DNA of 64,000 bases from positions 4,836,001-4,900,000 of the forward strand of contig NZ_CP136600.1 of NCBI RefSeq assembly GCF_032911225.1. Reading direction: 5' to 3'. Numbering within the stretch: position 1 is the stretch's first letter; each line of letters opens with the position of its first letter. Both the position numbers and the translations under genes were made by a program. Positions 8,351 to 64,000 of this stretch are shown here, piece after piece. The notes below the pieces were generated by a model that saw nothing but the letters and a program-made list of their open reading frames with translations, did not search any database and was not told where the DNA came from. This DNA is from Thalassotalea fonticola (GTDB taxonomy: Bacteria > Pseudomonadota > Gammaproteobacteria > Enterobacterales > Alteromonadaceae).

Positions 8351-8365
8351 AAGCTCATAACATCT

Positions 8366-9022: not shown

Positions 9023-9058
9023 GCGCCTCGCTTTAGGTAATTTACCTATCGCCATTAT

Positions 9059-11551: not shown

Positions 11552-11784
11552 AGCTGATTACTTTATCTTTTATGGGAGTACAAGTAATATAAACGGCCTA
11601 TTCTATATAATCAATCCATAGTTCAAAACAAATCTGTTTATAGTGATCGCATAAGACCAATACACTATTAATTTGACGCTGTGCTTCTGACCATGGCACA
11701 TTGATTGTTTAATTTAAATATTTGCAATGTTATTTTTTACTCTACGCTTAATTATGTTGGCAAGCATCGCTGTATCCCTTACTG

Positions 11785-11880: not shown

Positions 11881-11904
11881 ACTTATCTAATAGTATTTAT
11901 TTTT

Positions 11905-12549: not shown

Positions 12550-12558
12550 AAGTAATAT

Positions 12559-45815: not shown

Positions 45816-46361
45816 TACCTTTCCCAGTTTAATCTAATCAGATTTAAATATTGCTTTTGACTTTTTAGTCATATGCTACAGCTAATACTTTCCACATCTA
45901 TTTTGCCAAACAACACGATTGTTAAAAAATTTTATTCCATATTAAGGCAGCATTGAAGCTTGACATTGTGACTTTCTCTATTATCGACCACTAACTTGAC
46001 CACTCTTAGAAAAAAGCTAACGAATATCTTAAATTGATTCGATGTAACTATATATGGATACTTTGTTTCAAAATGATATTGACACTTAAGGGATGGATCA
46101 AGTCTGGCATCCTGCTCTCAAACACACCTTGTTTTTAGATCGAAATCGAATAAATAGAGAAACTAGGATTTTAATGTTTTAAATGTCTGCTTAGGGGAAA
46201 TCGATTTATTTTCTTCCGAAAGCTCCTAGTCGGTTTTTACGTGGTGCCTGAATACCAATAAGCCAAACCCAACCTTCCGCTAAGTGGCAACAGTCGCCGA
46301 TTCGGCATCGAATTTCGAACCAGGTATTTTATTTTTTTGATAAAACTGTCTCTTTGGTTCG
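45816..46361. other. Spacer without a recognised gene
   Basis: AT-rich and non-coding. It leads into the shared left flank of cassette array 1. Confidence 0.4.
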
Positions 46362-46575
46362 CTTAGCGGACATAAATCATTTTCAAAAATTAAATACTTT
46401 TTCTAATGGTCCAGAAACCTACATTTTCATTTATAAATGCAGATAAATGCTTTATTTCAAAAGAGTAAATGAAGTTTGTTGTTTTAATGATTTTTTCGAG
46501 TTAAATTATGATCTTAATAAATGTAAGGGAGGCTTCTTCATTTGGAAATGAAGAAACTTTCCTCTTAATAAGCTG
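46362..46575. repeat. Left flank of cassette array 1, shared with array 2
   Basis: About 214 bp that recurs before array 2 (58717-58933): CGGACATAAAT, AATACTTTTTCTAATGG, AAATGAAGTTTGTTGTTTTA and TTAAATTATGA occur in the same order. Similarity stops exactly at the G of the recombination site AGCTG^TTA. It could be an attI-like site with a promoter, or the end of an ancient common cassette. A perfect hairpin TTCTTCATTT/AAATGAAGAA lies near 46531-46552. Confidence 0.7.
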
Positions 46576-47213
46576 TTAGTTTTTAAGAGGCACCTATGGA
46601 TTTAGGCTTTTGGGGGAGTATCACCTCTATTTTAGCTTTTGCTATTATGGTTTTCAGTTTTGTATATTCAAAAGTGAAAAAATTTAGAAGCAAAATAAAA
46701 CAACACGATCTAAAGCTTAGTTCACTTGAAGAGTACGTAAAAGAACTCATGAGTCAAGCTACGAATGATACCAAGAGGAATGAAATATACCCGTACATCA
46801 ACATGCTATCTCAAAATCAAGCTCAATTTGCTATACAGTTAAGGCTTCGTTACAACTTAATTGCTGTTGCTGGTTTTCTAGGTCTAATGTTTGCGTGGGT
46901 AGCATTAATTTTTAAAGTCGGAGGTTTTGTTAGTTACCAAGAAAATCCAGCGATATTCGTATTGAGTTCATCTTTGGTTTTCTTAAGCATAGGTATAATA
47001 TTAGTATTGACTATATTTCAATTCATTATCCGTAAAGTTGAAAATGAGCAAATAGCTATCAACGATACTTGTATTCAGTTTTTGGGCAATGAACTAGAGC
47101 AGAAATATTTAAATAATAAAAACTAACAAGTCACTTAAAAGGACAAATAACTGTTGGTTTTTGCTCCTTCGTCGCTTATTTTAACCAACTATTATTTGCC
47201 TCTTAGTGAGGCG
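46575..47213 (+). mobile_element. Integron gene cassette 1 of array 1
   Basis: The cassette begins at G^TTAGTT (46575-46581) and ends at the G of GTTAGGA (47213). Its terminal R'' AACTAAC is the exact reverse complement of its own first bases, GTTAGTT, as expected for an integrated circular cassette. It carries one membrane-protein gene. Confidence 0.85.
46596..47126 (+). CDS. Cassette-borne membrane protein
   Basis: 176 residues with an N-terminal membrane helix (about 5-25), a charged coiled-coil segment (about 28-75) and two further membrane helices (about 85-108 and 118-145), then a short polar tail. No family is recognised. AAGAGG precedes the ATG at good spacing. The stop codon TAA lies inside the attC R'' arm, which is typical of compact cassettes. 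The layout resembles small membrane proteins found as last-line effectors, but this is only a guess. Confidence 0.75.
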   Translation: MDLGFWGSITSILAFAIMVFSFVYSKVKKFRSKIKQHDLKLSSLEEYVKELMSQATNDTKRNEIYPYINMLSQNQAQFAIQLRLRYNLIAVAGFLGLMFAWVALIFKVGGFVSYQENPAIFVLSSSLVFLSIGIILVLTIFQFIIRKVENEQIAINDTCIQFLGNELEQKYLNNKN

Positions 47214-47219
47214 TTAGGA
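47121..47219 (+). other. attC site 1 (VCR-like)
   Basis: R'' AACTAAC (47121-47127), CTGTTGGTTTTTGC / CTTATTTTAACCAAC as central complementary arms, and CCTCTTAGTGAGGCGTTAGGA at the right end with R' GTTAGGA. The length (99 bp) and right arm resemble Vibrio/Pseudoalteromonas attC sites. Confidence 0.88.
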
Positions 47220-47689: not shown

Positions 47690-47790
47690 TCCTAACAAGT
47701 CAATCAAACAGGACTTTAAACGGTTGGTTCTGTTCCGCTTCGCTTTACATTATAACCAACTATTAAAAGCCTATTAATGAGGCGTTAAGT
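47690..47790 (+). other. attC site 2 (VCR-like)
   Basis: R'' TCCTAAC (47690-47696), CGGTTGGTTCTG / ATTATAACCAAC central arms, right end CCTATTAATGAGGCGTTAAGT with R' GTTAAGT (47784-47790). Confidence 0.87.
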
Positions 47791-48534: not shown

Positions 48535-50868
48535 ATGATTCATTCTCGATGTTTGAGTAAGTTGTTATTTGTCTTTCTTGCTTTTTTATTAGTCGCCTGT
48601 GGCGGTGGTGGTGGTGGTGGTGGTGGTGGCTCAAGTAAACAAACTACAGAAACTCAACCTCCTCCATTACCACCAAATTCTGACACCACCCCACCAGAGA
48701 TAATCTCTGTTAGTCCCGCCCCTAACTCTATTGATATACCTAGGGATGCAAAAATTGTGGTGAAATTTAATGAGCCGCTAGATTGGTCTACTGTTCGTTC
48801 TACTAATTTTAGTTTCAGTGGTCCCGGATATACCAATGGTTCTGTTGGATATAATGAAAGTGATAATACCTTGCACTTTGAAAGCTTTTCTCGATTCGAT
48901 TATTCGTCAGTATATAGCGCAACAATATCAAAAAATATTACGGATACAGTCGGTAATCAGCTTGCACAAGATTATATTTGGTCTTTCACTAGTGAGGCTG
49001 AACCATTAATTCCAACTGATAGATCTGAATTCCTAATTTGTGTCACCAATAGTGATGAACTAATTGCTGCCCTTGAGCAAGCGGAAACTGATGGTGAGGA
49101 TACTTACATCAGAGTGCAAAAAGGTTTATACACTGGTAACTTCAGCTATAACTCAAGCACTACTGAGCGGTTATATATCGAAGGTGGTTATGAAAATGAA
49201 TGTTTAGATAGAAGTGGTAGTATTCTTACTTGGGCTCCAAGTACAACAATACAATCTGGGCCAACTGGCTATGGCAGTGTACTGTCATTAGTATCAAGCG
49301 CTGAAACAGTATTTTTAATCGAAGGTATCACCATTCAAAACGGGCAGCCGGGTACCAATTATTCTGCATTAAGTCTTTCAAACTTAGGCAAAGTGATCTT
49401 AACACTCAGTATTGTTAGAAATAATACTAATGGCACACCTGGTGGAATGAGTGCTTCAGCAGATATTGTTGGCATAATTGATAATGAATTTTCCGATAAT
49501 AGTGGTAAATACACCATTGGCGGGGCGTTTATTGCTGGCAACTACGTGGTTTTTGAAAGAAACACTGTGATTAATCATTCAGCCAACTCAGGTGAAGCTA
49601 TTTCGATTAATGCTATTAATGAAGCTAAGGTATTTGGTAATTATATTCGTAATAATTTAATCGGAGGGGTCAAAGTCGATGCACCAAAGGTAACTTTTGA
49701 TTGGAATAAGGTAGAAAATAATGCCGGTATAGGTTTCGATATTGCTTCCAGCACTGGTAGTTCAGAATATATCTCAATTAAAAACAATCTTATCGATGGT
49801 AATGTGAATGATAGTCGAGGAGGAGGTTTTGAAGCCAGTAGCGACCATATCGATGTATCACATAACCGTATCATTAATAACATCGCAACCACTAGTGGCG
49901 GTGGTTTTTTGCGGATAAATAGTGCCAATATTATTAATAACGTCATTGCTGAAAACCAAGCAAGTAGTACTAGCACCGGTGGTTTGCATGTGGTGATGGG
50001 GATTAATAAAGAGGTTGTGATTACCAATAATACGATTATCAACAATAGCTCTTTAACCAAAGGAGGAGGCTTAAAAATAGTAGGCATTCCATTAAGGTTA
50101 GATATTTACAATAATATCATTGTCAATAACAGCGCCTCTGAAGGAGCCGATTTGTACTTTGATAATAATAGCAGTGGTGTTGCTAACCCCATGACTGTCA
50201 ATATGCATAAAAACAACTACGACCAATCGGTTAACGGTATCTATTTGGTTGAGGAATTTGCTATTGGCGAAGATAATTTTGATAACTTGTATCCTGGCTA
50301 TATTGACCCGTTATTCCCTTATTTGCCAACAGGTTCAGTATTAATCGATAAAGGTGATAATTTTGCTCCAGGCATTCCTGAACTGGATCTGATTGACAAT
50401 GCTAGAATCATCAATGGGCAAGTTGATCTTGGTGCTTATGAGAATACCGACCAAGAATGGGTTTCTACCTCGATAACTGAAGAAGAGCCCAATGATAGCA
50501 GCAATGAAGCTTATAACTTTGAGCTCAACTACCGTACCGGATTTTTATTTTTAGGTGCCTTAAACGATGTTTCTGATACTGCAGATTATTATCGCTTTAC
50601 CACGAACAATACCTCCGGTTTGCTCTCGATCTATTTATGTAATAGCCCTGATAATTGCCAGCAACCGTTTTATATTGGCGATGAAATTTATATCGAATTA
50701 TTAGATGATCAAGGGGTGATCATTAACTCGACTTACTCTGAACAAACTAATAATAACGAACATGTATTTAATATCACTCCAGTGCATGGTGAAGTTTATG
50801 ATGTTCGAGTTAAAGCCAAAGATACAGCTGGAGCCGACTTTAATTACAAATTAGTGATCACGGATTAG
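48535..50868 (+). CDS. Surface lipoprotein with Ig-like domain and right-handed beta-helix
   Basis: Start at ATG 48535 after AAGGAG, giving 777 residues. A lipoprotein signal ends in LLVAC, followed by nine to ten glycines encoded by GGT repeats. Then come a Big_5/SbsA-type Ig-like domain (about 55-155; NSIDIPRDAKIVVKFNEPLD), a long parallel beta-helix with many NN-x-I/V-x-N ladders (about 220-600), and a C-terminal pre-peptidase-like domain (about 650-777). It probably acts at the cell surface on polysaccharide or as an adhesin; no catalytic residues can be assigned. Confidence 0.82.
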   Translation: MIHSRCLSKLLFVFLAFLLVACGGGGGGGGGGSSKQTTETQPPPLPPNSDTTPPEIISVSPAPNSIDIPRDAKIVVKFNEPLDWSTVRSTNFSFSGPGYTNGSVGYNESDNTLHFESFSRFDYSSVYSATISKNITDTVGNQLAQDYIWSFTSEAEPLIPTDRSEFLICVTNSDELIAALEQAETDGEDTYIRVQKGLYTGNFSYNSSTTERLYIEGGYENECLDRSGSILTWAPSTTIQSGPTGYGSVLSLVSSAETVFLIEGITIQNGQPGTNYSALSLSNLGKVILTLSIVRNNTNGTPGGMSASADIVGIIDNEFSDNSGKYTIGGAFIAGNYVVFERNTVINHSANSGEAISINAINEAKVFGNYIRNNLIGGVKVDAPKVTFDWNKVENNAGIGFDIASSTGSSEYISIKNNLIDGNVNDSRGGGFEASSDHIDVSHNRIINNIATTSGGGFLRINSANIINNVIAENQASSTSTGGLHVVMGINKEVVITNNTIINNSSLTKGGGLKIVGIPLRLDIYNNIIVNNSASEGADLYFDNNSSGVANPMTVNMHKNNYDQSVNGIYLVEEFAIGEDNFDNLYPGYIDPLFPYLPTGSVLIDKGDNFAPGIPELDLIDNARIINGQVDLGAYENTDQEWVSTSITEEEPNDSSNEAYNFELNYRTGFLFLGALNDVSDTADYYRFTTNNTSGLLSIYLCNSPDNCQQPFYIGDEIYIELLDDQGVIINSTYSEQTNNNEHVFNITPVHGEVYDVRVKAKDTAGADFNYKLVITD

Positions 50869-50906
50869 GCAACAGATTTAATGAGTCCTGTGTAAACGTC
50901 TAGGTC

Positions 50907-51048
50907 ATGCAGTCAAACATATCCAAATTATGCCATTGGGTTTTACCCACAGCATCAAGCCTTCACCATCGTAAAGACTTTATTCCTTGGCTTTAGGTTT
51001 TGTTTTTTCGATCTCTGTATTTGTGAGGGGCTTGGTAATTCTAGCCAT
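50907..51048 (-). pseudogene. N-terminal remnant of a P4-type tyrosine integrase
   Basis: On the minus strand from ATG 51048 the translation reads MARITKPLTNTEIEKTKPKA, then KE and a TAA, and resumes in the same frame as SLYDGEGLMLWVKPNG. This is the characteristic start of P4-like phage/island integrases (normally ...KEYKLYDGEGLMLRV...). The stop replaces the usual Tyr. The gene decays after about 45 codons and the catalytic domain is missing. It lies next to a tRNA-3'-like sequence, as intact island integrases do. Confidence 0.78.
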
Positions 51049-51135
51049 TTTGGTAACACACCATCGTGTTACTAAAAATGTTACTATAACTGCTGGATAT
51101 TGCAAATCTTCATTGGTCAGTAATTGACACAAAAA

Positions 51136-51170
51136 ACCCGTAAACCCTTGTTTAATTAGGGTTTACGGGT
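51136..51170. terminator. Perfect 12-bp inverted repeat, probable terminator
   Basis: ACCCGTAAACCC, an 11-base loop, then GGGTTTACGGGT. An A run lies on the left side and CTTTG on the right, so it would end transcription better on the minus strand. Confidence 0.6.
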
Positions 51171-51194
51171 CTTTGTTGGTCCTTGATGAACCGG

Positions 51195-51222
51195 CTTGTG
51201 GTGGGCGGGGGGGATTTGAATT
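51195..51222. other. tRNA-3'-end-like sequence, possible att remnant
   Basis: TTGTGGTGGGCGGGGGGGAT followed by TTGAATTT reads like the reverse complement of a tRNA 3' part, but no full tRNA can be folded around it. It lies about 150 bp from the integrase remnant. Similar sequences occur at 33704 and 40307. Confidence 0.45.
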
Positions 51223-52058
51223 TAGTGCTTTATCATTTGTTATATAATGATTTTATCCTTTATGTATTTTAAGTGTATACCTATTGATATACCCAAGATG
51301 TGAATCGTCATACCGTTTTATATTGATTTAGTTTATAGCGGGTGAGGGTATCGATAGACCACTATTTAGTAAGGTATTTTCGCTCAAGACTCAACTATAT
51401 CAAACTCTTTATGCAATGATTACCAACTCAGTTTATCCATCGTGCTGTTTAACTCAAGAAATCATCCTTGGATAGCTTTAATTCATTCACTTATTACTTG
51501 ATAGTCTTATGTCTTTTTGTTATATGCTCCATTGTTTATATAGCTATGATGCATATACCTATTGATGAATTTAAGATTTTTCTTAAATTAAAGCTAGTTA
51601 TCATAGTTTTTTGGTTAAACCTGTTAATCTAAATTACGTCATATTGACCCGTGCAACAAAATCGAATTATTTATTGGCTCAACTGTAAAGTAGTAGCCAA
51701 TACCTTATTGTTATAGAAATTTAACCTCAACCGTTTATAGGCTCAAACAACCTAGAAATACCTAGTTCTTTAAATTGAACGATTAGATCCTTTTGGCCGA
51801 GAATTATAGGCCGCATGTTATGAAAGGTATAATTCAATATTGCAATTATTTTAAGTGAATTGATCACCATTAAAATAACCCAGACTTCTACCATATCAAT
51901 AATCAGTTACAAAACAATATCACTGAATTGCTTCTTCTAATTTTTGCTGTTAACGTAATAATACATCGTGAACTTTTGCAGAGAATTTTTGTAATAAAAA
52001 TGATACGTCGCAGGATATCACACCATTAGAATGTAAGCTGAGCAAAGAGTTTTCAATT

Positions 52059-52280
52059 ATGAATGAATTTTATACGTGGTTATTAAGCCAATCAGGTCGC
52101 AATGACATTATTTCTGATCTTGCGTCAGACGTTAGGCAAGATTCAAGTTTTCCACTAGATAGCGACAACTTTACTTCTCTTCGAGAGTATTTAGAAAACA
52201 AAGGTGCATGCCCTGGCGCGCTTGAAGCACTTGATGAAGCTTGGCGAGAGTTTGTGGAAATAAATACCATTAAAATATAG
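52059..52280 (+). CDS. YozE-like SAM-fold small protein
   Basis: 73 residues beginning MNEFYTWLLSQSGRNDIISD, with SDNFTSLREYLENKGACPGA and EALDEAWREFVE. This matches the YozE SAM-like family: small soluble helical proteins of unknown function. It is compact and isolated, and followed by an attC-like sequence, so it may be a former cassette gene. Confidence 0.8.
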   Translation: MNEFYTWLLSQSGRNDIISDLASDVRQDSSFPLDSDNFTSLREYLENKGACPGALEALDEAWREFVEINTIKI

Positions 52281-52365
52281 TTTCACGGCTTTTAAACGGA
52301 CTAAAGCTGTTGGTTGTTTTCCTTCTTCAACCATCTTTTAACGCTTAAAATGGGGCTATGTTATT
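52276..52365 (+). other. Degenerate attC-like sequence after the YozE gene
   Basis: CTGTTGGTTGTTTTCCTTCTTCAACC resembles the core of the other attC sites, and GGGGCTATGTTATTT could be the R' end. The left arm is not a clean R''. It is likely an eroded cassette end. Confidence 0.4.
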
Positions 52366-52653
52366 TAATTAATACGCAAACTAGTTGGATAAGTTGATGC
52401 CTTGCAAGTAGGTAGTCGCCTGTTAACGGAGGCGAGCTTACAAATAGCAAAAACAACCCCGTACATTTTAAGCGAGACCAATGGACATTTGCTGCCACAA
52501 AACAGACATTTCTCTGCTATGTATTTGTGAAATTGCCATGTCGCTGTCTTGCTTAAACTTGTCTACTTAACTGGGGGAAGTCCAAACTGACAAGACCCTA
52601 GTGTCATAGACATTTCTTAGCTTTATAATATGTAAAACTAATAGGTGTTATTT
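52366..52653. other. Spacer before the IS3 remnant
   Basis: No gene is recognised. Confidence 0.4.
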
Positions 52654-52914
52654 ATGAGCGGTCAAAGCTATAGCGAAGAATTCAAAATCTAAGCAGTTAA
52701 CCAAGTAACTGAAAGCAATTATCCTATGACTGAAATAGCAAAACGTCTAGGTGTCAGCTACAAAACTATCCATGATTGGGTAAAGAAATATTCAAAACCA
52801 ACAAAACAAAGACAATTGGACGATTTCCAGTCTGAGGTAATTCGTCGCTTAAAAGCTGAGTTGAAACGAGTTACCCAAGAGCGTGAAATATTAAAGGAAG
52901 CCGCGTCAAAATAA
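52654..52914 (+). pseudogene. IS3-family transposase OrfA, interrupted by a stop
   Basis: The frame from ATG 52654 reads MSGQSYSEEFKI, then TAA (52690-52692) where Glu or Lys is normal, then AVNQVTES and an HTH (MTEIAKRLGVSYKTIHDWVK). A leucine-zipper-like tail ends REILKEAASK. This is OrfA of an IS3-type element. OrfB and a clear right end are missing; 52915-53018 may hold eroded OrfB sequence. The element is dead. Confidence 0.8.
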
Positions 52915-53018
52915 ATTAGCAAGTCGTCAAGACGAAATACGACGCATTTTTAAGCCAAAACCATTCAGGTTCAAGGTTTCTCGCTGACAAGTATTTCTGA
53001 TGATTGTCAGCAATTTTG

Positions 53019-53753
53019 CTATTTGATTGGGCAATGTAGTTTCTTTATTTTGTCACTAATATCCGCATCATTACACATTAATTGCATGAGATCATTAGAG
53101 ATAATAGTCGAATCTAATCCTATGATAATATTGACTAAAAATAATAGAAAGGAAACTAATAGTGTCAGCTGAATAAAAAAGATCTGAAATTGGTGTTTCC
53201 AAATAAACTTTCGAATCGAACCAAGGCTGCCCTCTTTTACATGTGTGTCTAAAAAGCTCGATGATTTATCCCAACCAATTGAAAGGTTCATCATTGCTAG
53301 CCAAAATGCTAGAAGCACAATTGGCAGCGCCAAGAATTCAGACTTTAAGGTGCCATAGCAGAAGTACCCACCTAAAAACACACCGCTCGCGATAAAGTAG
53401 TTAGTTATGTGCTCAAACAAGGATAAATGTGGACTGTCTGAGCCACTTCCTCCTCCGCTAAACAATGCGTCTGACACAGAAGCGAAAACTCCTATGAACG
53501 TTAAAATCAAAGCTATAGTTACGGCAACCGATACCCATAACATCCATTCCAATGTAGTCAAAACAGAACCAGCAGTTGGGTAGAAAGAAGGGTCTATAAA
53601 CCCATATTCAACTGAAAATTCAATAATTAATGCTACAACAATTACAATAACTACAGCAACTTCAAAAAGAAATTTTTTTGGGTGGTTTGTTGCTCCAGTG
53701 TTTATTCTATCCGCGAAAGCCATATACTTTTTCCTTGTATTTTTATGTGACAA
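53019..53753 (-). CDS. Polytopic membrane protein of unknown function
   Basis: 244 residues with a cytoplasmic N-terminus and five probable membrane helices (about 28-50, 62-92, 112-132, 138-158, 190-218). A Gly/Ser-rich loop GGGSGSDSPH lies between helices 2 and 3. AAGGAA precedes the ATG region. No family is recognised. It is downstream of the retron on the same strand, but 1.2 kb away with debris between, so a shared role is unproven. Confidence 0.65.
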   Translation of the reverse strand: MSHKNTRKKYMAFADRINTGATNHPKKFLFEVAVVIVIVVALIIEFSVEYGFIDPSFYPTAGSVLTTLEWMLWVSVAVTIALILTFIGVFASVSDALFSGGGSGSDSPHLSLFEHITNYFIASGVFLGGYFCYGTLKSEFLALPIVLLAFWLAMMNLSIGWDKSSSFLDTHVKEGSLGSIRKFIWKHQFQIFFIQLTLLVSFLLFLVNIIIGLDSTIISNDLMQLMCNDADISDKIKKLHCPIK

Positions 53754-54448
53754 GCAAATTAAGCAATAAAATCATCCTAATGAAAGGTTATTACTTTTCG
53801 ATTTTAAAGTTCAAGTGCCAAACAATATGTACAGAATTAATTTTTTTGCTTTATGGAAATGCTGGTATAGAAATGTGTTGCAATGAATTCATGACAATAA
53901 CGCAGTTCCGTTCCGTATTTCCTACTACGGCAGATAAAAGTAAAGCATGATATTTTCCATTTTGCCAGATGGGTTGATTATGGAATTGTTTAGCTGCGTA
54001 TTAGGCGGAGATAATTCGCCATCAAAACGTAAGTGCAGGCGCTTCAGGGTTCTAGCATCTCACTTCAAATACCTTAGCAGCCTAAATTTAATACTGTAGT
54101 GGTATAGTGAATTTGGCCACCTAAGTAGAAGTATTAGCAAAACAAAAACTAATCTCAATACACCTTATCCAATAAAACCATTATGTCCGCAATGTGGCAA
54201 AAGTTAGATCATTTGTTGCAAACGCGTCTTCCTCTTTGGGCACTTACCATCCCTAGACGTTGTTAATTTAAACAACTCTCATTCGAACATATAATTTACT
54301 TTCATCATCTTCATATCGAGTTTCAAGCGCATCTAAATATTGAATCAAGTAACAAGTCTTAGATAGCCGTAGTTCTTTAAATTAAAAGGTGATTGCTTAG
54401 CGAGGTAAAGGCCTATGTCTGATACGTTAGCCCATCCATCCTCTTTTC
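53754..54448. other. Gene-free stretch with an IS-end-like repeat
   Basis: No gene is supported. The second IS-end-like copy is at 54094-54131. Confidence 0.45.
54094..54131. repeat. IS-end-like sequence, copy 2
   Basis: TGTAGTGGTATAGTGAATTT followed by GGCCACCTAAGTAGA; compare 44634-44676. Both probably derive from the end of the same insertion sequence. Confidence 0.5.
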
Positions 54449-54765
54449 TTACAATAGAAATGGCACAATAGACTTAGTTGTCGAATCCTCATGGGTCAAG
54501 CAGGTGCTATGTTTAGTCAATATACTTGTTGGTTTACTGATGTAATGGTCAAAACACACAAATTTCGAACAACTGTTCACAAACTCACTACAAGCCATAT
54601 TCTGTCCATAACCATGCAATTGGTTTTCGGTTGTCCTGATACGAGTCACTAAGGCCGGAAAATCACTGTCAGACGATACGATGGCATAAATATCAATGTT
54701 ATCAGCATGGAGTGAGTCAACATGGTCTATGGTTAAAGACGTATAACTGTACTAACTTCAATCAA
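54449..54765 (-). pseudogene. Truncated NYN-domain (LabA/DUF88-like) nuclease
   Basis: Reading the minus strand from about 54765, one frame gives TSLTIDHVDSLHADNIDIYA, then IVSSDSDFPALVTRIR and, later, a phrase like FVNSCSKFV. These are the typical second half of the NYN/DUF88 domain, whose IVSSDSDF motif carries the catalytic Asp residues. The N-terminal half and start are missing, so the gene is truncated. NYN proteins are RNases or related nucleases. It lies downstream of the retron RT on the same strand. Confidence 0.7.
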
Positions 54766-54976
54766 AGCGGTTGTTCAACCAATCTGACTGATGTTATCTT
54801 TTGCTAATTAATTTAGAAAAAAGTAAAGAAAACATGGCAGCATCAATTAAAAAGCTCAAGCCCACCTAAGTTGATTAAACCTTACCGAACAACATAAAGG
54901 GCACAGCCAAAACCCTATCTTTAGAAGACAAAATAAATTGATAGAGCAACTAGAAGTACAACACTAAATGGCGAAA

Positions 54977-56764
54977 CTATTTAATGGTGTCGAAGTGCTT
55001 AGTAGCCTTAACAATACGTTCTAGTAACGGCTTCAAATCATTAAAGTCTACAATGTTCTTTTGTGCTTTAACAATTTGTTTAGAAAATGCATCTTTACTT
55101 AAATCTTTATCTCCATCTCGATTGGTTACAGTGTTAAAACATTTACCCTTATATTTTCTTAGGCGATCAATATCCTTAAAGAAGTACTCTATATCAGTAT
55201 AACTATCGTTGACTCCTAGAGGAGTTAAAACTACATAAAGATTATGAAATATATGAATGAAATCAGCTTTTCTGTAGTCTTGTTTTAGCACTAATGAAGT
55301 GGGGGAAATAGTAGCTGAAGATATATTGGAGACATAGCTTAATAAGCCTTGTGGTCCAGTATCATTATCAATCACAATTATCACAGGCTGTTTAGGTTTT
55401 GGGGCTTTATATTGTTTTAGCTGAGATTCATAACCCATTATGAAGTGCTTCAAATAATCAGCTCCTCCGTGAAGTTCTAACAGAAATTTAGTTCTTTCTG
55501 AGTACTCTACAAAACGCAATAGCAGTTCATACGGTGTAGTGGCTGTTTTGACATTTGCCAAAGCAGGAAAATCCGAAGCAAGCATATTTATCGCTGTTTT
55601 TAGATAAACATTATCGGTTTTTCCTTCTGTTAGCATCGTTGGTTTGTCGTTTGCGTAAAATAATTGATAAAACAAAAATTGACTGAATGTTTTTTCTCGG
55701 CCACTAAATAAATACCTTCTTTGCTTAGCTTTTTTTTGTTTTATTAATTCATCCCTTTTTAAATTATACTTCGGATTGAGAGGTGGCTTTTGGCGTAATC
55801 TATTGTAATGATCTATTTGGTCAATAAAGTTTAACTGACCTTCTAACTCATTGATGTTGCCGTTGACAGGTATACCATCAGTTGTTTTAGTGAATTGTCC
55901 TGTATTAAATAAATTATTACATTGTGCTCTCACTGTGCGCCAATATTCTTTTTTTGTATTTGGCTTTTTATTAACCACTAGCCCTGTAACATCTTGTCTT
56001 GAATCCTTATATTGAATTCGTGTTTTCTTATCATTAATTGAAAACCCTGCTCGATTAATTTCACTTTTTAACTTTTTACTCGAGTAGTACTCGCCTTCTT
56101 CATGACGCATTATTTGAAGTGGGAAATCAGCTTTACGAGTTGAAAATGTTATGTCATCAGCATACCTAGAATAAGTACAAGAATGTTTTTTAGCGAGATA
56201 AGCTAGTCGAATATCTAATGAGTGAGCAATTAAATTTGTTATGACTGGTGAACTTGGACTTCCTTGAGGTAATTTATTGTTATAACATGCAATTTGGGCA
56301 ATAACTGTTGCTATTGCTGGATCTAATTTAAAGTTTTCATTTTTTATAAAGAAACCTCTAACTCTACCAAAGTTAAAACTATCAAAAAAGTTTTCAAGAT
56401 CAATGTTTAATACATTTTTTTGACCCAAATGCATCATCGCATTCGTGATTATAGATCTATGCCTGACAAAACCATGGGATAAAGTTGGCTGAATAATTTC
56501 ACTTGTGGGATATTTTATTTTGTTTATATCGTCAACACAATCTAGTAGCAAGTTTGAGAGATTAGCTTGAATAGTTTTTAATCTACCATTTGGAGCGCTG
56601 ATAATGCGCTCACCACCATTCTTTTTTGGGATTTTAAATTGAGTGTATTGAGTGCTGGGTTTAAGGATATATAAAGTATAAGTGAAAATTGACGCTTTAA
56701 TCCCAAGTAGGGTAGCTAGTTGTTTTTTTGTTGTAGTTTTTTGTAAAGCTTCCAATTTACCCAT
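54977..56764 (-). CDS. Retron reverse transcriptase fused to a C-terminal TOPRIM-like domain
   Basis: 595 residues. The RT half (about 35-330) has FKIPKKNGGER, NIDLENFFDSF with Asp122, QGSPSSPVITNLIAH (retron region X, NxxxH), YADD at 201-204 and the retron hallmark VTG at 259-261 followed by LVVNKK. A basic linker (340-365) leads to a TOPRIM-like domain (about 375-560): TEGKTD with Glu380, and VIDNDTG with the DxD-type pair at 466-468. It should reverse-transcribe the adjacent ncRNA into msDNA; the TOPRIM part may be the nuclease or effector. GAAGG precedes the ATG. Confidence 0.92.
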   Translation of the reverse strand: MGKLEALQKTTTKKQLATLLGIKASIFTYTLYILKPSTQYTQFKIPKKNGGERIISAPNGRLKTIQANLSNLLLDCVDDINKIKYPTSEIIQPTLSHGFVRHRSIITNAMMHLGQKNVLNIDLENFFDSFNFGRVRGFFIKNENFKLDPAIATVIAQIACYNNKLPQGSPSSPVITNLIAHSLDIRLAYLAKKHSCTYSRYADDITFSTRKADFPLQIMRHEEGEYYSSKKLKSEINRAGFSINDKKTRIQYKDSRQDVTGLVVNKKPNTKKEYWRTVRAQCNNLFNTGQFTKTTDGIPVNGNINELEGQLNFIDQIDHYNRLRQKPPLNPKYNLKRDELIKQKKAKQRRYLFSGREKTFSQFLFYQLFYANDKPTMLTEGKTDNVYLKTAINMLASDFPALANVKTATTPYELLLRFVEYSERTKFLLELHGGADYLKHFIMGYESQLKQYKAPKPKQPVIIVIDNDTGPQGLLSYVSNISSATISPTSLVLKQDYRKADFIHIFHNLYVVLTPLGVNDSYTDIEYFFKDIDRLRKYKGKCFNTVTNRDGDKDLSKDAFSKQIVKAQKNIVDFNDLKPLLERIVKATKHFDTIK

Positions 56765-56794
56765 GAATTACCTTCAAATTCCTTTTTATGAGGG

Positions 56795-56925
56795 GGTTTA
56801 TGGGCACTCTTACGCAGTTAACATTAGTAATGGTTTACAGAAGTACTAAAGTTATTATAAAGGCAATCCAGACGGACATTATTTTCACTGACCGCGAAAC
56901 GCGGCCCAAAATCTGCCCATAAACC
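56795..56925 (-). ncRNA. Retron ncRNA (msr-msd)
   Basis: On the minus strand GGTTTATGGGCA (a1, 56914-56925) and TGCCCATAAACC (a2, 56795-56806) form a perfect 12-bp inverted repeat around ~107 nt, ending 30 bp before the RT start. A G follows a1 as candidate branch base. The msr part has a hairpin CCGCG-TTT-CGCGG (56892-56904). The msd part has TAACTTTAGTA/TACTAATGTTA, 11 bp with one mismatch (56819-56854). Order, size and spacing match retron ncRNAs. Confidence 0.88.
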
Positions 56926-56943
56926 GCTAAGTAAAATAACTGT

Positions 56944-56977
56944 TATTATCATTAATTACAAGTAGTTAATGATAATA
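56944..56977. promoter_or_regulatory. 12-bp perfect dyad between the retron and the GIY-YIG gene
   Basis: TATTATCATTAA, ten bases, TTAATGATAATA. It lies 18 bp upstream of the ncRNA a1 arm, at the retron promoter, and 139 bp from the divergent GIY-YIG gene. It could be a repressor operator. A terminator is less likely, as there is no T run and the stem is pure AT-rich sequence. Confidence 0.6.
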
Positions 56978-57115
56978 CTTTAAATGTATCAGTTACAAAT
57001 TATAATTTTTATTTGTTGATGTATTACGATAGTTTATTGTGATATCTAATCCGTTAAAAAGCACAATATTTCATAGACTATAATTTAACTAGCAAAAGTT
57101 TACTGGGGATAGGCA

Positions 57116-57430
57116 ATGTGGCATATGGTGTATAAGATTTATGGTAAAGGGCATTTGCTTTATGTAGGAGAAGGATCGGATGTTGATGCTAGGGTTGATT
57201 TTCACTCTAAAAACGCACCATGGTTTAAAGAAGCCGATTGGATTAAGGAATGCTGGCTTCCAAATAAGGAGGTAGCGGTAATGTATGAAACTTATCTCAT
57301 AAATACAGAAAAACCGTCAGAAAACAAACAAAAAAATAATAATAGTGATATGAGTATTGTGACTTTTGATGAAGATTCAATTATGTGGTTGGATGGGCAT
57401 TTAAATGGACATTTGAGAGAAAACTATTAA
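57116..57430 (+). CDS. Small GIY-YIG superfamily protein
   Basis: 104 residues. VYKIYGKGHLLYVGEGSD holds a GIY-YIG core in which VYKI and LYVG stand for the two tyrosine motifs. DARVDFH supplies the Arg/His region, MYETYLI the catalytic-type Glu, and KPSENK the closing Asn. It is a minimal nuclease domain without a DNA-binding extension; the C-terminal ~30 residues are acidic and polar. It is divergent from the retron with a dyad between them. A role with the retron is possible but unproven. Confidence 0.75.
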   Translation: MWHMVYKIYGKGHLLYVGEGSDVDARVDFHSKNAPWFKEADWIKECWLPNKEVAVMYETYLINTEKPSENKQKNNNSDMSIVTFDEDSIMWLDGHLNGHLRENY

Positions 57431-58129
57431 ACAAGCTGAAAAATAATAATAAAGTTTAAAGGTGATGATAAAAGTTGATTTTTTAATAAATATATAGATA
57501 TTCAGTTCTGATGATTATTTTTAGCGGTATTGATAGTGGCACTAGGTTGTTGCTATTGGGTTAAGTTGCTTTGTATTGTGTGTTAGGTGTGTTGTCGAGT
57601 ATCTATATCCCAATAGATAAACTACTATTTTTTATTGAATAATGATTCAACTGACACCGTATCATCTGAATTAAGTGTTTAACTCATTATCAAAAAATGA
57701 TTTTATATTTACATGTGCGTTGGTGTATACCTATTGATGTGCCTAAACTGTGAACTGTTATACCTTTTTTAGTGATTTAGTTAATCACGGGGGGCTGATA
57801 TAATATTGCTTAGTAAGTTATTTACAATTGAGGCCCAACTCTACTTTGAAGTCTAGCTTTAATAGCCTATAACGCATCTCTAATTATTAAAAATCTGGCT
57901 CAACCGTTTTTAGCTTCTACGGTATGAGAAAGGGGAGGGGAGGCGTAAATCATCCAAGGCCCCCACGTCATAATAGACCCTGACCATACGCATACTTTGT
58001 GCCTCAATTTTTTTAGCAATCATATATTTTACAGACTAGTGGTGTTTTCGATCCTACAATTAATTAAAGAAGTTTTATCTGCAAACATTCAATACGCATA
58101 TCGACAGTAAACTATTTTTAGGATCAATT
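57431..58129. other. Non-coding stretch with a diverged repeat
   Basis: About 57690-57850 resembles 51230-51410: GTGTATACCTATTGAT, CATACC/TATACC-TTTT, TGATTTAGTT and TTTAGTAAG-like words are in the same order. No gene. Confidence 0.45.
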
Positions 58130-58324
58130 ATGAGTTTACACCATGAAAAAGTGGCAAAAAATATTTTAATTGAATCTCTTGAGTTCAACGAAGTGATAGA
58201 TGTAAGTTCAATTCCTATTTACGCAACAAACTGTCGGGAGGTTGGATGCTTCATTATATATAGCTTTAATCTGAGTCAAGGTTCAATGGTGATAGCTATA
58301 CTGCTGTACACAAGGACACTTTAA
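58130..58324 (+). CDS. Short hypothetical gene, possibly truncated or frameshifted
   Basis: 64 codons from an ATG with TTTAGGA before it. The first 45 residues look like a normal soluble protein (NILIESLEFNEVIDVSS). Near the end another frame stays open a little further, so a frameshift is possible. No family is recognised. Confidence 0.4.
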   Translation: MSLHHEKVAKNILIESLEFNEVIDVSSIPIYATNCREVGCFIIYSFNLSQGSMVIAILLYTRTL

Positions 58325-58716
58325 AAACAAAGTATTTGTAGATCTATTAAATAGATTAACCTGTAGCACTTTTCCAATTAAAGCGGGTGAGGGTTACATG
58401 AAGATAAAAACTAGAAATACATACTGTTTTATTATGAACAATTAATATTATTTTTCTTACCTATTTTTATTAACTTATATGTAAACTTGTAAACTTAATT
58501 AGTCTTTAAAAGTTAAAAAGAGGGTTGGTTTCCTCCTAGAATATGTCAGGATAATATCTTTGATATGAGTTTTGGGCGTTTTGAACTGTCAGCTGACATT
58601 TACGGCCCATTGCAGCGTTACTGACAGCTCCCTACCCCAAAACGACTGAGAATTACAACATTAATTGGCTGCTTCTAATTTTCTCTATGTGTCATTAGAT
58701 GTTTTATTTCAAATGT
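58325..58716. other. Spacer without a recognised gene
   Basis: Non-coding. CTGTCAGCTGACATT and ACTGACAGC near 58589-58626 form a loose inverted repeat. It leads into the shared left flank of array 2. Confidence 0.4.
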
Positions 58717-58933
58717 TCGCATACCGGACATAAATAACTTCAAAAATGCAATACTTTTTCTAATGGTATTTCAGTCTACATTTGATTGCACAAATGCAGA
58801 AAAATATTTTCTTTCAACAGCGTAAATGAAGTTTGTTGTTTTATTGATTTTTTCAAGTTAAATTATGAGCTTAATAAATGTTAGGAGAGTTTCTTCCTGT
58901 AGAAATGAATAAACTAACCTGTTAAAAGAGCTG
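58717..58933. repeat. Left flank of cassette array 2, shared with array 1
   Basis: The counterpart of 46362-46575. It has the same words in order and the same end point, AGCTG^TTA. The hairpin near its right end is weaker than in copy 1. Confidence 0.7.
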
Positions 58934-58972
58934 TTATGCCGCAATAGCCTAATCAATAGACATGGAGGTGTT

Positions 58973-60091
58973 ATGGGTGTTTTTTTAAGAAAAAGTATTA
59001 AAGTCGGTGCTTTTCGTTTTAATTTATCTAAATCTGGGGTAGGTGTCTCGGCTGGTGTAAAAGGGTTAAGGCTTGGCACTGGTCCAAGAGGAAATTATGT
59101 TCGCATTGGAACAAAAGGAATTTATTATAGTGCATCACTTCCAAAACCACCCAATATTGACTCTAATCCACGAATAGAACCAATAAATTTAGATAGCGTT
59201 AAATTGCCTGTTTCATCGACTCATGAAGAACTGAAAGAAATTGACTCTGCAGATACATCACAAATTGTCGATTCTTCATCTGTAGACCTATTAAATGAAT
59301 TAAACTTAAAACAAAAAAAACTAACACTTTTTCCAATTGTATTTGCTATTTTCATATTATTAGTGTTATTTGGTTATTATTCAAAATTATCAAATGAGCT
59401 GTTAGGCGTTCTAATTTTTCTGGGCGTTGGATTTTCTTGGTTTTCACATAATAGAGATATATTGGCAAAGACATCCGTTCTACTCTACGATTTTGAACCA
59501 AAAATTGAATCTAATTATAACCAATTGATTGAGGGGCTACTGAAAATTAGCCAGTGTGCAAAAGTTTGGCATATTTCTGCTTCTGGAAAAGTTTTAGATC
59601 AAAAGTATCATGCAGGTGCAAGTGATCTAGTCGAACGCAAAGAAACAACAATTAAAGTTGTTGAACCTCCCAATATAAAAACGAATGTTAAATCTATTGC
59701 TATAGCTGTTGGCCGTCAAACATTACACTTTTTCCCTGATCGTGTTCTAATTTTTGATGCAAATGGAGTTGGTGCAGCTAACTACTATTCTCTAAAAGTA
59801 AATGCTAAAGAAAAACAATTTATTGAAGAGGATGGAGTGCCTTCAGACGCAAAAGTTGTAGATAAAACTTGGAAGTATGTAAATAAATCTGGTGGCCCAG
59901 ATAGAAGATTTAATGATAACCACGAAATACCCATCTGCCTTTATGAAGAAATCCTATTTAAGAGTAGAAATGGGATAAATGAGATCATTCAATTGTCTTC
60001 TTGCGGAAAAACAAAAATGTTATTAGACGCTTTTACTAAATTTTCAACTTTTTTACCTAAAGAAGTGGTTTCTCAATCCGAAGCGGCATAA
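58973..60091 (+). CDS. DUF4236-domain membrane protein, cassette-borne
   Basis: 372 residues. The N-terminus MGVFLRKSIKVGAFRFNLSK through GVGVSAGVKGLRLGTGPRGN is a clear DUF4236 domain (about 1-55). A polar linker, two membrane helices (about 118-150) and a large soluble C-terminal domain follow (about 160-372). A strong GGAGG precedes the ATG. It is the first cassette of array 2 (58933-60180): its R'' GCATAAC is the exact reverse complement of the cassette start GTTATGC, and the stop TAA lies inside R''. Function is unknown. Confidence 0.82.
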   Translation: MGVFLRKSIKVGAFRFNLSKSGVGVSAGVKGLRLGTGPRGNYVRIGTKGIYYSASLPKPPNIDSNPRIEPINLDSVKLPVSSTHEELKEIDSADTSQIVDSSSVDLLNELNLKQKKLTLFPIVFAIFILLVLFGYYSKLSNELLGVLIFLGVGFSWFSHNRDILAKTSVLLYDFEPKIESNYNQLIEGLLKISQCAKVWHISASGKVLDQKYHAGASDLVERKETTIKVVEPPNIKTNVKSIAIAVGRQTLHFFPDRVLIFDANGVGAANYYSLKVNAKEKQFIEEDGVPSDAKVVDKTWKYVNKSGGPDRRFNDNHEIPICLYEEILFKSRNGINEIIQLSSCGKTKMLLDAFTKFSTFLPKEVVSQSEAA

Positions 60092-60186
60092 CAAAAATTT
60101 AAAGCGGGACTGCTTACTGTTTGCTCGGTTTCGCTTCGATACACATTTTAGCAAACTTTTATCAGCCCCTTAAATGGGCGTTATAC
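60086..60186 (+). other. attC site A of array 2
   Basis: R'' GCATAAC (60086-60092), AGCGGGAC, TTTGCTCGG / TTTTAGCAAAC central arms, and CAGCCCCTTAAATGGGCGTT with R' GTTATAC (60180-60186). The right arm is almost that of the Vibrio cholerae repeat. Confidence 0.9.
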
Positions 60187-60206
60187 GAAATAGAAATGGA
60201 GTCTCT

Positions 60207-60797
60207 TTGAGTTCTGAAAATTTTGAATTAAGTGATGGTGCATTACGTCAACGAAGAAACTTGATGTCTGTGACATTATTGGTTGTTTTTACTCACTTTG
60301 CGGGGGTAGAGTTCGGTGAGCAAGTGAAGTTCATGGGTACTTCTTTTAAAATTACTAACCCCAATTTCATTATTCAATTTATTTTGATTATACAAGCATA
60401 TTTTTTGTGGCGATTTTATCAGTATTTTTACCATGACAAAGTTACTCCAGCTCTGAAATTTCAATATCGAAACCAATTATCATCAACACAGGATAAAGAA
60501 ATTCTTTCTCAAATATTTAAAAAGCTACCGAAAGGCGTTCAGTTAATATCAAGTAGCCATACTTATTCTGATATACAAAAATTAGACTCAAGCGCAGGTA
60601 TATACGAAGTAGAAGTTAATTCACCAAATTCAGATAACTCAGGTGATAACAAACATTTGATAGAAATATCAAGAAAGTCTATTGAAAAAAAGAAATTTCC
60701 AGTCGTTTTTGGTTTTGCTTTCCGAGGAAAGATTATAACTGATTTTTATTTACCTTTGATTTTTGTAATTTTATCAGTTCCCTTAAATTTCGTATAA
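60207..60797 (+). CDS. Cassette-borne membrane protein
   Basis: The start is placed at TTG 60207 because GGAG (60198-60201) precedes it; the longer frame from ATG 60174 would begin inside attC. About 196 residues: two N-terminal membrane helices (about 20-40 and 55-80), a soluble middle, and a C-terminal helix (about 175-196). No family is recognised. The stop TAA lies inside R'' GTATAAC, the exact reverse complement of the cassette start GTTATAC. Confidence 0.68.
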   Translation: MSSENFELSDGALRQRRNLMSVTLLVVFTHFAGVEFGEQVKFMGTSFKITNPNFIIQFILIIQAYFLWRFYQYFYHDKVTPALKFQYRNQLSSTQDKEILSQIFKKLPKGVQLISSSHTYSDIQKLDSSAGIYEVEVNSPNSDNSGDNKHLIEISRKSIEKKKFPVVFGFAFRGKIITDFYLPLIFVILSVPLNFV

Positions 60798-60888
60798 CAA
60801 GTCATTCAAAAGGACAAAACAGTTGGATTTTGCTCCTTAGTCGCTTATTTTAGCCAACAATTATCAGCCCCTTAGTTGGGCATTATAT
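60792..60888 (+). other. attC site B of array 2
   Basis: R'' GTATAAC (60792-60798), AAGTCATTCAAAAGGACAAA, CAGTTGGATTTTGC / TTTTAGCCAAC arms and CAGCCCCTTAGTTGGGCATT. The R' reads ATTATAT, so the crossover G is an A here. Very close to attC 1 of array 1. Confidence 0.85.
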
Positions 60889-60903
60889 TCCTAGGAGTTG
60901 AAA

Positions 60904-61452
60904 ATGGAGTTTTCAGAAATAAGTAAAATTGTATTTGGGATCGTTACCGCTGTAGGTACTATAGCATTAACTTTTTTTAATATGAGTCAAACTAGGAAAG
61001 TTACAGCTGAGTTGTTAGAGAAATTTGAAATAGCTGTTGAAAAGACTCAAAAGAATTCGGTGACTGAATTGTTTCGCTTAATTCATGGATTGCGAATGAA
61101 TTACCAAGACATTATTGAGTTGATAAACCATGATGACTGTTCAAGAATAATATACGCATTAAAAAGAACACCTGGCTTGGTTTGTTATGAAAATGGTTCT
61201 TTTCAGTATACATCTATTGGCAGAAATTCAATTTTTAAATTCGTTGATAAATGGTTTACTCGACTCGGTATTGCAACCTTTAGCATATTTACTTTTGCCA
61301 GTTATTTACTGCTTGTTTTTGGTAATAATTACTCGGCAATTGCCGGGTTTTTTATGCTTATTGTGTTTGCATTTATGTTAGGTCGGCAGTTAAGACAAAG
61401 GAGGTATGACCAAATGGTAGAGTCTTTAGTAAAACCGGAACTTATGAAGTAA
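60904..61452 (+). CDS. Cassette-borne membrane protein
   Basis: Start at ATG 60904, with AGGAG six bases upstream (an earlier in-frame TTG overlaps the ribosome site). 182 residues: N-terminal membrane helix (about 8-26), a soluble helical region (about 30-115), two membrane helices (about 122-142 and 146-164) and a basic tail. No family is recognised. The layout (helix, soluble coil, two helices) is like that of the cassette 1 protein at 46596. Confidence 0.7.
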   Translation: MEFSEISKIVFGIVTAVGTIALTFFNMSQTRKVTAELLEKFEIAVEKTQKNSVTELFRLIHGLRMNYQDIIELINHDDCSRIIYALKRTPGLVCYENGSFQYTSIGRNSIFKFVDKWFTRLGIATFSIFTFASYLLLVFGNNYSAIAGFFMLIVFAFMLGRQLRQRRYDQMVESLVKPELMK

Positions 61453-61538
61453 ATAAGCCGGGACAAAAAACAATTGGCCTTCCTTCGTTCTCATTAATTT
61501 TAGCGAACTATTTTAAGCCGTTTAGCAGGGCGTTATTG
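61448..61538 (+). other. attC site C of array 2 (partly degenerate)
   Basis: GTAAATAAGCCGGGACAAAA at left has no proper R'' AAC. AATTGGCCTTCC / TTTTAGCGAAC arms and AAGCCGTTTAGCAGGGCGTT, with R' GTTATTG (61532-61538), are recognisable. It is the end of the array. Confidence 0.7.
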
Positions 61539-61540
61539 AA

Positions 61541-61585
61541 ACAAAATCTAATCCGAAATTACTTTTATAATGAAGTCCTAATGTC
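61541..61585. repeat. Right flank of cassette array 2, shared with array 1
   Basis: AACAAAATCTAATCCGAAAT followed by TACTTTTATAATGAAGTCCTAATGTCT; compare 48091-48142. Confidence 0.7.
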
Positions 61586-61821
61586 TCAAATTTGGCATTA
61601 GTTAACATGTCCAAAATGTTCGCATTCCTGACGTTAGCAATTCGTTAATTAAATATTAGTTACAGTCAGTAGCACTCTATAAAGCCGACATTATGAAACG
61701 CTTTATTTAAAGCCTAATTTATTCAAGTTTCATTCATTACTGAATTAAGGTATTGTTTTATATACTTTCATTTAGCGATTAAACCTAGAACATTAAAGAT
61801 AAATTTATGTTGAGGGAACAA
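61586..61821. other. Spacer before the Gabija-like genes
   Basis: AT-rich, non-coding; it must contain the promoter of the nuclease-helicase pair. Confidence 0.4.
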
Positions 61822-63771
61822 ATGCATTTATCAAATATAAGCATTAAAGGGTATAAAGTAGTAAACGAAACATCCACCGTTGCATTACATAAAGGGCTTA
61901 ACGTAATTGTCGGTGAGAATGCATCAGGTAAAACATCGATAATTGATGCTATCAGGTTACTTTTGCGTGAAGATGAATTTGGCTTTTCACCAGTTTCCGA
62001 AAAAGACTTTCACAAACCATTTACTGACAATAGTCAACCAGCGGATAATTTTTTTATTCAAGGGCAGTTTAGTGGGTTATCAAAAGATGATAAAGTAACT
62101 TTCCTCCCTTGGTATGACTTAAAAGAGCATGCAACACTTAGTCTTAAATTTGAAAATAAAGAAAAATATGGGCGATATAAAAAGCAAGTATGGGGAGGTA
62201 GTTCTAAATCATCAGTGTTTGAATGGGAGTTATTTGACAAGATAAATTGTATATATTTACCCCCTCTAAGAGATGCCGAAGCAAAGCTAAAAGAGGGTAA
62301 ATCATCTCGTTTAGCAAAATTATTGAAGAACTTAGAAGCTTCAGCAATTAAAGATGCGAAAGGTAATTACAAGCTCCATAAACTTGAAGAAAGGTTTAAA
62401 GTCTTTAATGACGAAATAGCTACTTCTGAAGACTTTCCGATTAAGGGCATGAATGACAAAATAAGTCAGCAACTAAAGGATGCAGTGGGTCAAACATTCG
62501 GGCAACATACACATATATCGTTCTCTGAAGTGGGTTTTAATCGAATTGCTGAAAGCCTGCGTTTGTTTTTCTTTCCGGGTATAGAAGAACATGAAAATAA
62601 AGAAAATTATCGTTCTTTAGACGAAAATAGTTTGGGGCATAATAACTTACTGTACCTAGCAACTATTCTTGCTGAGCTTATTGACTCAGGAGAGCAAGAT
62701 GAACGCTTGAAAGTGCTGCTGGTTGAGGAGCCTGAAGCTCACTTACATCCTCAGCTTCAAATAAAGCTTTTAAAATACCTTGAGACAATATCTTTAAGCA
62801 GAGAAATTCAGGTCATTGTCACAACACACTCCCCTGTTTTAGCGTCATCCGCGACAATTAACAGTCTAATCCATATTTGTTCTAATAATGGGAAAGTTAA
62901 TGCTACACCCATAAAAGATACAGGGTTGGATTATAAGGTCAGTATTAAGTGTGAAACGCACGATGGCTGCAGTGACATAACTATTCCTGAAAGTGCTGAC
63001 TTTTTAACTCGTTGGTTAGATACAACAAAATCGACACTCTTGTTTGCCAAAGGAATAATTCTTGTAGAAGGTATTGCTGAAGCGTTTATCGTTCCTCAAT
63101 TAGCAAAAAAAATACTTAAAAAGTATAACTCAACGAATAAACCTAAATTACCGGAAAGTATAGATGAAGCAGGTGTAAGCGTTGTTAATATGAATGGGAT
63201 TTACTTTAAACATTTCATGAGACTGTTTTGTAATTTTGGTATTGAGGACAAAGAAAGTGCTAATATTCCCATCAGGTGTTCGGGAATGACAGATCAAGAC
63301 CCAGAAAAGGACTTAGATGAAAATGGAAATAAAACAATTCCTGCTAGTCCAACTACTGCTAACCATAATTTTGGTAAAAATCCTGCACTGAATTTAATAG
63401 CAACAATCAATAAGTCTGAATACTGCCGCCTATTTGTAGGCCCTCTTAAAACCTTAGAGTATGACTTAGCTATGGAAGGCAATAATATTCAAAGCATGGC
63501 TAGTGTGCTTGCAGAAAATTGGCATAATAGAGAAGAGGTTTATAAAGAACTAAAAGAGATAAGTGAAAAAGATTGGTGCAAAGAAACGCTTAAAAATAAA
63601 GCTGAAGCAGCAAATGAAATTCTAAAAAGGATTGAAGATAAAAATATGGGTAAAGGATATTTTGCCCAGTTATTCTCTGAAACAATTACTAAAAATAGTG
63701 AATTAGCTACTCCTCAATATATAACTAATGCTGTTCTTTGGGCATGTGGGGGAAAAGTTAGTGACCAATAG
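61822..63771 (+). CDS. gajA: GajA-like OLD-family ATPase/TOPRIM nuclease (Gabija)
   Basis: Start at ATG 61822, six bases after GAGG; an ATG at 61807 is less well served. 649 residues. An N-terminal ABC-type ATPase has Walker A GENASGKTS (about 31-39), Walker B LLVEEPEAHLHPQLQ and H-loop VTTHSP. A C-terminal TOPRIM domain starts at ILVEGIAEAFIVP and includes the OLD-family phrase KTLEYDLAME. A UvrD-type helicase overlaps its end, as in Gabija (GajA cuts DNA, GajB senses or unwinds). It is likely to be an antiphage system. Confidence 0.88.
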   Translation: MHLSNISIKGYKVVNETSTVALHKGLNVIVGENASGKTSIIDAIRLLLREDEFGFSPVSEKDFHKPFTDNSQPADNFFIQGQFSGLSKDDKVTFLPWYDLKEHATLSLKFENKEKYGRYKKQVWGGSSKSSVFEWELFDKINCIYLPPLRDAEAKLKEGKSSRLAKLLKNLEASAIKDAKGNYKLHKLEERFKVFNDEIATSEDFPIKGMNDKISQQLKDAVGQTFGQHTHISFSEVGFNRIAESLRLFFFPGIEEHENKENYRSLDENSLGHNNLLYLATILAELIDSGEQDERLKVLLVEEPEAHLHPQLQIKLLKYLETISLSREIQVIVTTHSPVLASSATINSLIHICSNNGKVNATPIKDTGLDYKVSIKCETHDGCSDITIPESADFLTRWLDTTKSTLLFAKGIILVEGIAEAFIVPQLAKKILKKYNSTNKPKLPESIDEAGVSVVNMNGIYFKHFMRLFCNFGIEDKESANIPIRCSGMTDQDPEKDLDENGNKTIPASPTTANHNFGKNPALNLIATINKSEYCRLFVGPLKTLEYDLAMEGNNIQSMASVLAENWHNREEVYKELKEISEKDWCKETLKNKAEAANEILKRIEDKNMGKGYFAQLFSETITKNSELATPQYITNAVLWACGGKVSDQ

Positions 63772-64000
63772 GGAAGAGCTAATATCTACACTCTGCCCAA
63801 CCAATGGTGAACACATTTACTGCGATAAATGTCAGACCAATGGTAAATGCAGGGTGAAAGAAAAAACTGATAAGCAAATAAACTACATCTTATCCCCTAT
63901 AGACGAGTCTATATTTTTAAAGGCTTGCCCAGGAAGTGGTAAAACCGAAGTTGTAGCTATGAAAGCTGCCTATGAAATATCAAAATGGCAGTCTAATGGA
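63761..64000 (+). CDS. gajB: GajB-like UvrD/Rep helicase, N-terminus only
   Basis: Partial: 80 codons to the window edge. GTG 63761 with GGGGG about ten bases upstream overlaps the gajA-like stop by 11 bases; GTG 63746 is an alternative. The first ~35 residues hold a Cys cluster C-x9-C-x2-C-x5-C (CPTNGEHIYCDKCQTNGKC). The helicase begins with ILSPIDESIFLKACPGSGKT, which contains the Walker A of a superfamily 1 helicase. Position and motif support GajB; the rest is unseen. Confidence 0.82.
   Translation, partial: MTNREELISTLCPTNGEHIYCDKCQTNGKCRVKEKTDKQINYILSPIDESIFLKACPGSGKTEVVAMKAAYEISKWQSNG

Follow-up and report, generated by a model that had tools for sequence, protein, structure and literature searches.

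The window analysed here comprises 64,000 nucleotides of the Thalassotalea fonticola genome (assembly GCF_032911225.1, contig NZ_CP136600.1, positions 4,836,001 to 4,900,000 of the forward strand). Its minus strand carries a gene in which a reverse transcriptase (RT) is fused to a TOPRIM domain (54977..56764, 595 amino acids), and upstream of this gene a noncoding RNA (ncRNA) of 131 nucleotides with the order a1-msr-msd-a2 (56795..56925). By family and anatomy this locus is virtually certain to be a complete and ordinary retron of type I-C, belonging to the family of Retron-Eco2 (Ec67).

The protein contains all hallmarks of a retron RT, i.e., NAxxH (NAMMH at residue 108), YADD (residues 201-204), and VTG (residue 259), as well as a QGSP motif at residue 167, and its RT core corresponds to Pfam RVT_1 at residues 45-262 (55979..56632). 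An initial annotation, made from the sequence without database searches, had pointed to YADD, VTG, and a fused TOPRIM-like domain with EGKTD and DNDTG motifs (residues 380 and 466), all of which were borne out, the fusion by the Eco2 family matches and the conserved acidic residues. The PADLOC model RT-Toprim_I-C scores the protein with 743 bits and the NCBIfam model retron_Ec67_fus (NF038237) with 753.9 bits over residues 4-591, the curated cut-off being 450, and comparison with the solved Eco2 protein yielded 43.7% identity over 574 aligned residues. The TOPRIM effector domain was set to residues 370-595 (54980..55657), the boundary at 370 being adopted from the initial annotation, and displays the expected E, D, DxD, and E as E380, D384, D466, D468, and E526. 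These five residues proved to be invariant in 15 of 15 aligned TOPRIM domains (alignment A2, 15 of 19 sequences, without L006, L010, L011, and L022), as did the lysines K541 and K557 in the numbering of the window protein. For Eco2 the available part of PMC12405507 assigns E374, D460, and D462 to metal A and D378, S513, and E515 to metal B, plus K562; the metal A residues align to E380, D466, and D468 and the metal B residues to D384, D524, and E526 of the window protein. The Eco2 RT positions F46, R56, K66, R184, Y199, D201, D202, K245, R247, and S253 are kept. Among the basic contacts of the Eco2 TOPRIM domain K383 is kept and H387, K418, R555, and K557 are altered. A fold search with the predicted structure (input alignment A4, 12 of 19 sequences), a check which had been proposed for the C-terminal part, gave five matches at E <= 0.001, every one an Eco2 chain; the TOPRIM folds of OLD, Gabija, and PARIS were absent among the matches, to which little weight is given at a mean predicted local distance difference test score (pLDDT) of 71.0.

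The ncRNA is bounded by a perfect inverted repeat of 12 bp as originally claimed, with a1 reading GGTTTATGGGCA (56914..56925) and a2 reading TGCCCATAAACC (56795..56806) without any mismatch. When the 250 nucleotides upstream of the reading frame were shuffled with preserved dinucleotides, a comparable pair of arms at a spacing of 60-200 nucleotides occurred in 2 of 1000 cases. The 131 nucleotides fold with -39.8 kcal/mol, compared to a mean of -27.45 for shuffled sequences (z -3.84), none of 200 shuffles equalling this value. In an alignment of 18 ncRNAs (A1, 18 of 19 sequences, L008 being without the upstream part) the a1/a2 arms form standard pairs in 100% of cells with both-sided changes in 11 of the 12 pairs, the msr hairpin (56890..56906, seven base pairs with a three-nucleotide loop) is 99.2% paired with both-sided changes in three of seven pairs, and a small hairpin is 88.9% paired. 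For the whole structure none of 500 shuffles matched the observed pairing, the both-sided changed pairs or cells, or the covariation score, the further pair types being equalled in 40 of 500. Sliding the partners by 1-3 columns lowered the pairing from 81.2% to 32.6-44.4%. The covariance model R2, built from 17 homologues with the window excluded, matches exactly 56795-56925 of the minus strand with 120.2 bits (E 3.9e-27), the runner-up place reaching 17.3 bits; alignment and model together confirm the claim of a complete ncRNA with an msr hairpin. In 15 of the 18 ncRNAs the sequence CAGA is located after a1 or at its end, and its AG is found in all of them, in agreement with the branch region proposed initially; the msr hairpin and the G-G-T opening a2 are also prominent in the alignment. 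The predicted branch G was placed at position 56913 because CAGA is the context of the priming G in Eco2 (PMC6868368, available part). The msd template is predicted to comprise about 70 nucleotides (56808..56877) from the line-up with Eco2 and, in part, from the Ec67 msDNA. Its long hairpin (56819..56854) appears in the fold and is as such not conserved in homologues. Within this subfamily there is hardly any change in the a1/a2 arms, branch region, and msr hairpin, while the msd hairpin is rebuilt between homologues. Should selection drive this change, the msd might be an evolving bait tuned to local phage nucleases, with a trigger other than the DenB nuclease suggested for Eco2, a tentative idea which we consider rather unlikely.

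By analogy to Eco2, the most likely role of the retron is antiphage defence of the abortive type. The RT would copy the msd part of the ncRNA, using the 2'-OH of G 56913 as the primer, to yield an RNA-linked multicopy single-stranded DNA (msDNA) of about 70 nucleotides. A complex of this msDNA with the RT-TOPRIM protein would keep the fused nuclease inactive until a phage factor, in Eco2 probably DenB, attacks the msDNA, whereupon the freed TOPRIM domain would cut RNA and halt both phage development and the cell. A second protein would not be required. While the gene, the ncRNA, the conserved active-site residues, the family membership, and the lack of a conserved neighbour are observed at the locus, we infer msDNA synthesis, complex formation, autoinhibition, trigger, and RNase activity from Eco2. 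There, protection, toxicity, and RNase activity of the isolated TOPRIM part have been reported, and escaping phages carry denB mutations, DenB itself being without a direct assay in the available part of that paper (PMC12405507); according to the available part of PMC11555353 some phages are restricted by Eco2, and a phage gene evading it is named there. Family, anatomy, and this mechanism taken together are regarded as likely.

The window's list of open reading frames contains no ATPase gene immediately beside the RT-TOPRIM gene. This had been stated correctly in the initial annotation, which however left unmentioned an ATPase-TOPRIM gene about 5 kb away on the opposite strand (61807-63771), and which regarded the missing ATPase as an anomaly to be explained either by a self-contained effector or by partners lost or located elsewhere. 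The gene at 61807-63771 might at first sight be such a distant partner of a retron that has lost its own OLD-type ATPase, but it proved to be GajA (785.7 bits), directly followed past the window end by GajB (locus L015 13477-15510, 589.2 bits), the two forming a Gabija pair. Comparison of 18 homologous loci (12 genome contigs, three plasmid records, and three further genomes, with short flanks in some), which had also been proposed as a check, revealed RT-TOPRIM as the sole gene common to more than two of them; three other gene clusters are each common to two, and neither an ATPase nor any other separate effector gene is conserved beside the RT. Association with an OLD-type ATPase characterises type I-B retrons according to the available part of PMC10568477, and no separate OLD ATPase-TOPRIM gene is found beside the RT here. 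The PADLOC RT-Toprim_I-C models carry the label 'single gene', and the available text of PMC12405507 describes Eco2 as an RT-Toprim protein plus an ncRNA, functioning without an ATPase. The absence of an ATPase is normal because an RT-TOPRIM fusion without such a partner is a known type I-C retron; the supposed anomaly was not upheld, the self-contained effector is favoured, and a lost or distant partner, which is very improbable, was rejected on the basis of the locus comparison and the GajA-GajB pairing. A silent or decaying copy with no present function could be suspected from the adjoining same-strand gene (54452-54751), which, as first annotated, is a decayed NYN gene (E 5.8e-10 to Pfam NYN, the match being confined to positions 79-142 of the 145 in the profile), and from the patchy occurrence of the retron, matches at E <= 1e-100 being found in 4 of 196 genomes of the same family including the source genome. 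Defence genes are usually patchy, however, and the reading frame, the motifs, and the ncRNA are intact, which makes decay very unlikely.

A number of observations weigh against an Eco2-like retron at this locus. Pfam matched RVT_1 alone and found no TOPRIM domain in the C-terminal part, so that the TOPRIM assignment rests on the matches to the Eco2 family. Rfam gave no retron family, neither for the whole window at gathering scores nor for 56700-57120 up to E 5; of the covariance search proposed by the initial annotation this half was negative, whereas R2 gave the match described above. The long msd stem is paired in just 42.4% of cells of the ncRNA alignment, and the presumed msDNA folded as DNA (56807-56876, one base off the predicted template range) showed no unusual stability (z -0.54, 52 of 200 shuffles as good). 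Residue S513 of metal B in Eco2 is D524 in the window protein, no counterpart of the catalytic lysine K562 was matched by the alignment, position 562 of the chain by count being Asp, and the Eco2 positions R70, T249, R264, H281, Q329, D331, R332, and Y333 are changed. R332, the mutation of which to alanine eliminates Eco2 defence (PMC12405507, available part), belongs with D331 and Y333 to the loop (328-342) which, together with the msr RNA, holds the Eco2 trimer; the alignment is poor in this loop, where R332 is aligned to Tyr. A retron of the same anatomy could have a TOPRIM domain aimed at DNA or particular tRNAs rather than at the RNA target of Eco2, or respond to a quite different phage trigger. 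TOPRIM effectors do vary, with double-stranded DNA as target for Gabija and tRNA-Lys for PARIS (PMC12405507, available part), identity to Eco2 is just 43.7% with S513 replaced by Asp, and the msd varies among homologues. Against this, the acidic active-site residues are identical to those of Eco2 and no result of this analysis indicates another target, and we judge a different target or trigger unlikely. An Eco2-like type I-C retron is the preferred reading.

Matches to the protein were found in 370 plasmid records, with a coverage of 80% or more of its length in 18 of them, and in 54 phage records, with such coverage in one; many plasmid records among the matches listed are named 'retron Ec67 family RNA-directed DNA polymerase/endonuclease'. 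Two of the homologues appear to be interrupted. In a Geobacteraceae metagenome-assembled genome a group II intron end (L008 117-190, Rfam Intron_gpII, 54.3 bits) is located where the RT-TOPRIM homologue starts at residue 149, as if the intron lay within the retron gene, and in L022 (171-2904) the homologue is in two pieces with a reading frame of 301 amino acids (520-1425) between them, as if inserted in the TOPRIM part. In the source genome the retron is found at two identical places, the only two detected by R2. At its end the only contig carries 14,523 bases that are identical without a mismatch to bases 3-14,525 of its start, which involves about 50254-64000 of the window, and the second place falls within these identical ends. 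A two-copy duplication was rejected; most simply, the second copy reflects overlapping ends of a circular contig that were left untrimmed, and the retron is present in single copy, though a real terminal duplication may lie behind the identical ends.

The region of the retron also holds the Gabija pair and integron cassettes. Short runs of attC sites at 47121-47219 and 47690-47790 and at 60086-60186, 60792-60888, and 61440-61538 flank the retron (model R1), and three more sites are found in L015 (16660-16757, 17515-17613, and 18256-18354); the Gabija pair directly follows an attC run. Between 47791 and 60085 R1 found no attC at E <= 5, although a very divergent site could escape this model, which was built from the same sites, and the retron as an integron cassette is unsupported. 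Several cassettes begin with bases whose reverse complement matches the start of the attC belonging to the same cassette. With 150 of 1134 candidates given a score, the attC model hits at least 71 genomic places, the majority of them on the minus strand around 3.33-3.37 Mb. The integron integrase (contig C1 3370273-3371219, in L029 and L030) matches TIGR02249 in two pieces with 324.9 bits (cut-off 265), the second piece containing an in-frame TAA, and is probably broken. A block of 222 bp occurs in three copies of 75-81% identity (46357-46578, 58715-58936, and L015 16089-16312), each located immediately before the gene that opens a cassette run and terminating in GCTGTTA. The copy at 46357 aligns weakly to the stretch from the integrase to the main array (59% over 217, E 4e-7), the other two giving short weak matches only; these blocks may be additional attI-like leaders located far away from the integrase. 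The retron is flanked by the two copies of a direct repeat, each about 130 bp long and sharing 75% identity (51214-51342 and 57664-57791), and two different matches to the bacterial small signal recognition particle RNA lie 2.7 kb apart at 9067-9163 and 11772-11860 (71.5 and 50.5 bits).

With the false anomaly removed, the RT-TOPRIM retron is complete even though it lacks an ATPase. It is a well-preserved relative of Retron-Eco2 (Ec67) from E. coli, also of type I-C, and the solved Eco2 structures (PDB 9lm3, 9i2f, 9i2g, and 9s1f) allow an alignment of its ncRNA ends, its priming site, and the residues of its active site. Both systems consist of a single RT-TOPRIM protein and an upstream ncRNA with one msr hairpin, have no partner gene, and share the priming G within CAGA and the acidic TOPRIM residues. 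They differ, besides the 43.7% identity and the S513 to Asp exchange, in H281 and, by the poor alignment of this loop, the trimer-loop residues, which are changed in the window protein, and in the msd hairpin, the predicted msDNA having about 70 nucleotides compared to 67 in Eco2. Type I-B retrons such as Eco8 likewise have a retron RT, an ncRNA, and a TOPRIM-type nuclease, but carry the TOPRIM domain on a separate ATPase protein (PMC10568477, available part), whereas in the window it is fused to the RT. A protein of the Ec67 family, already so named in public records, on the conjugative Shewanella baltica plasmid pSBP2_mcr4 (NZ_CP051531.1) is 71.9% identical over 97% of the window protein; its neighbours differ from those in the window, and its ncRNA is nearly identical except for the msd loop.
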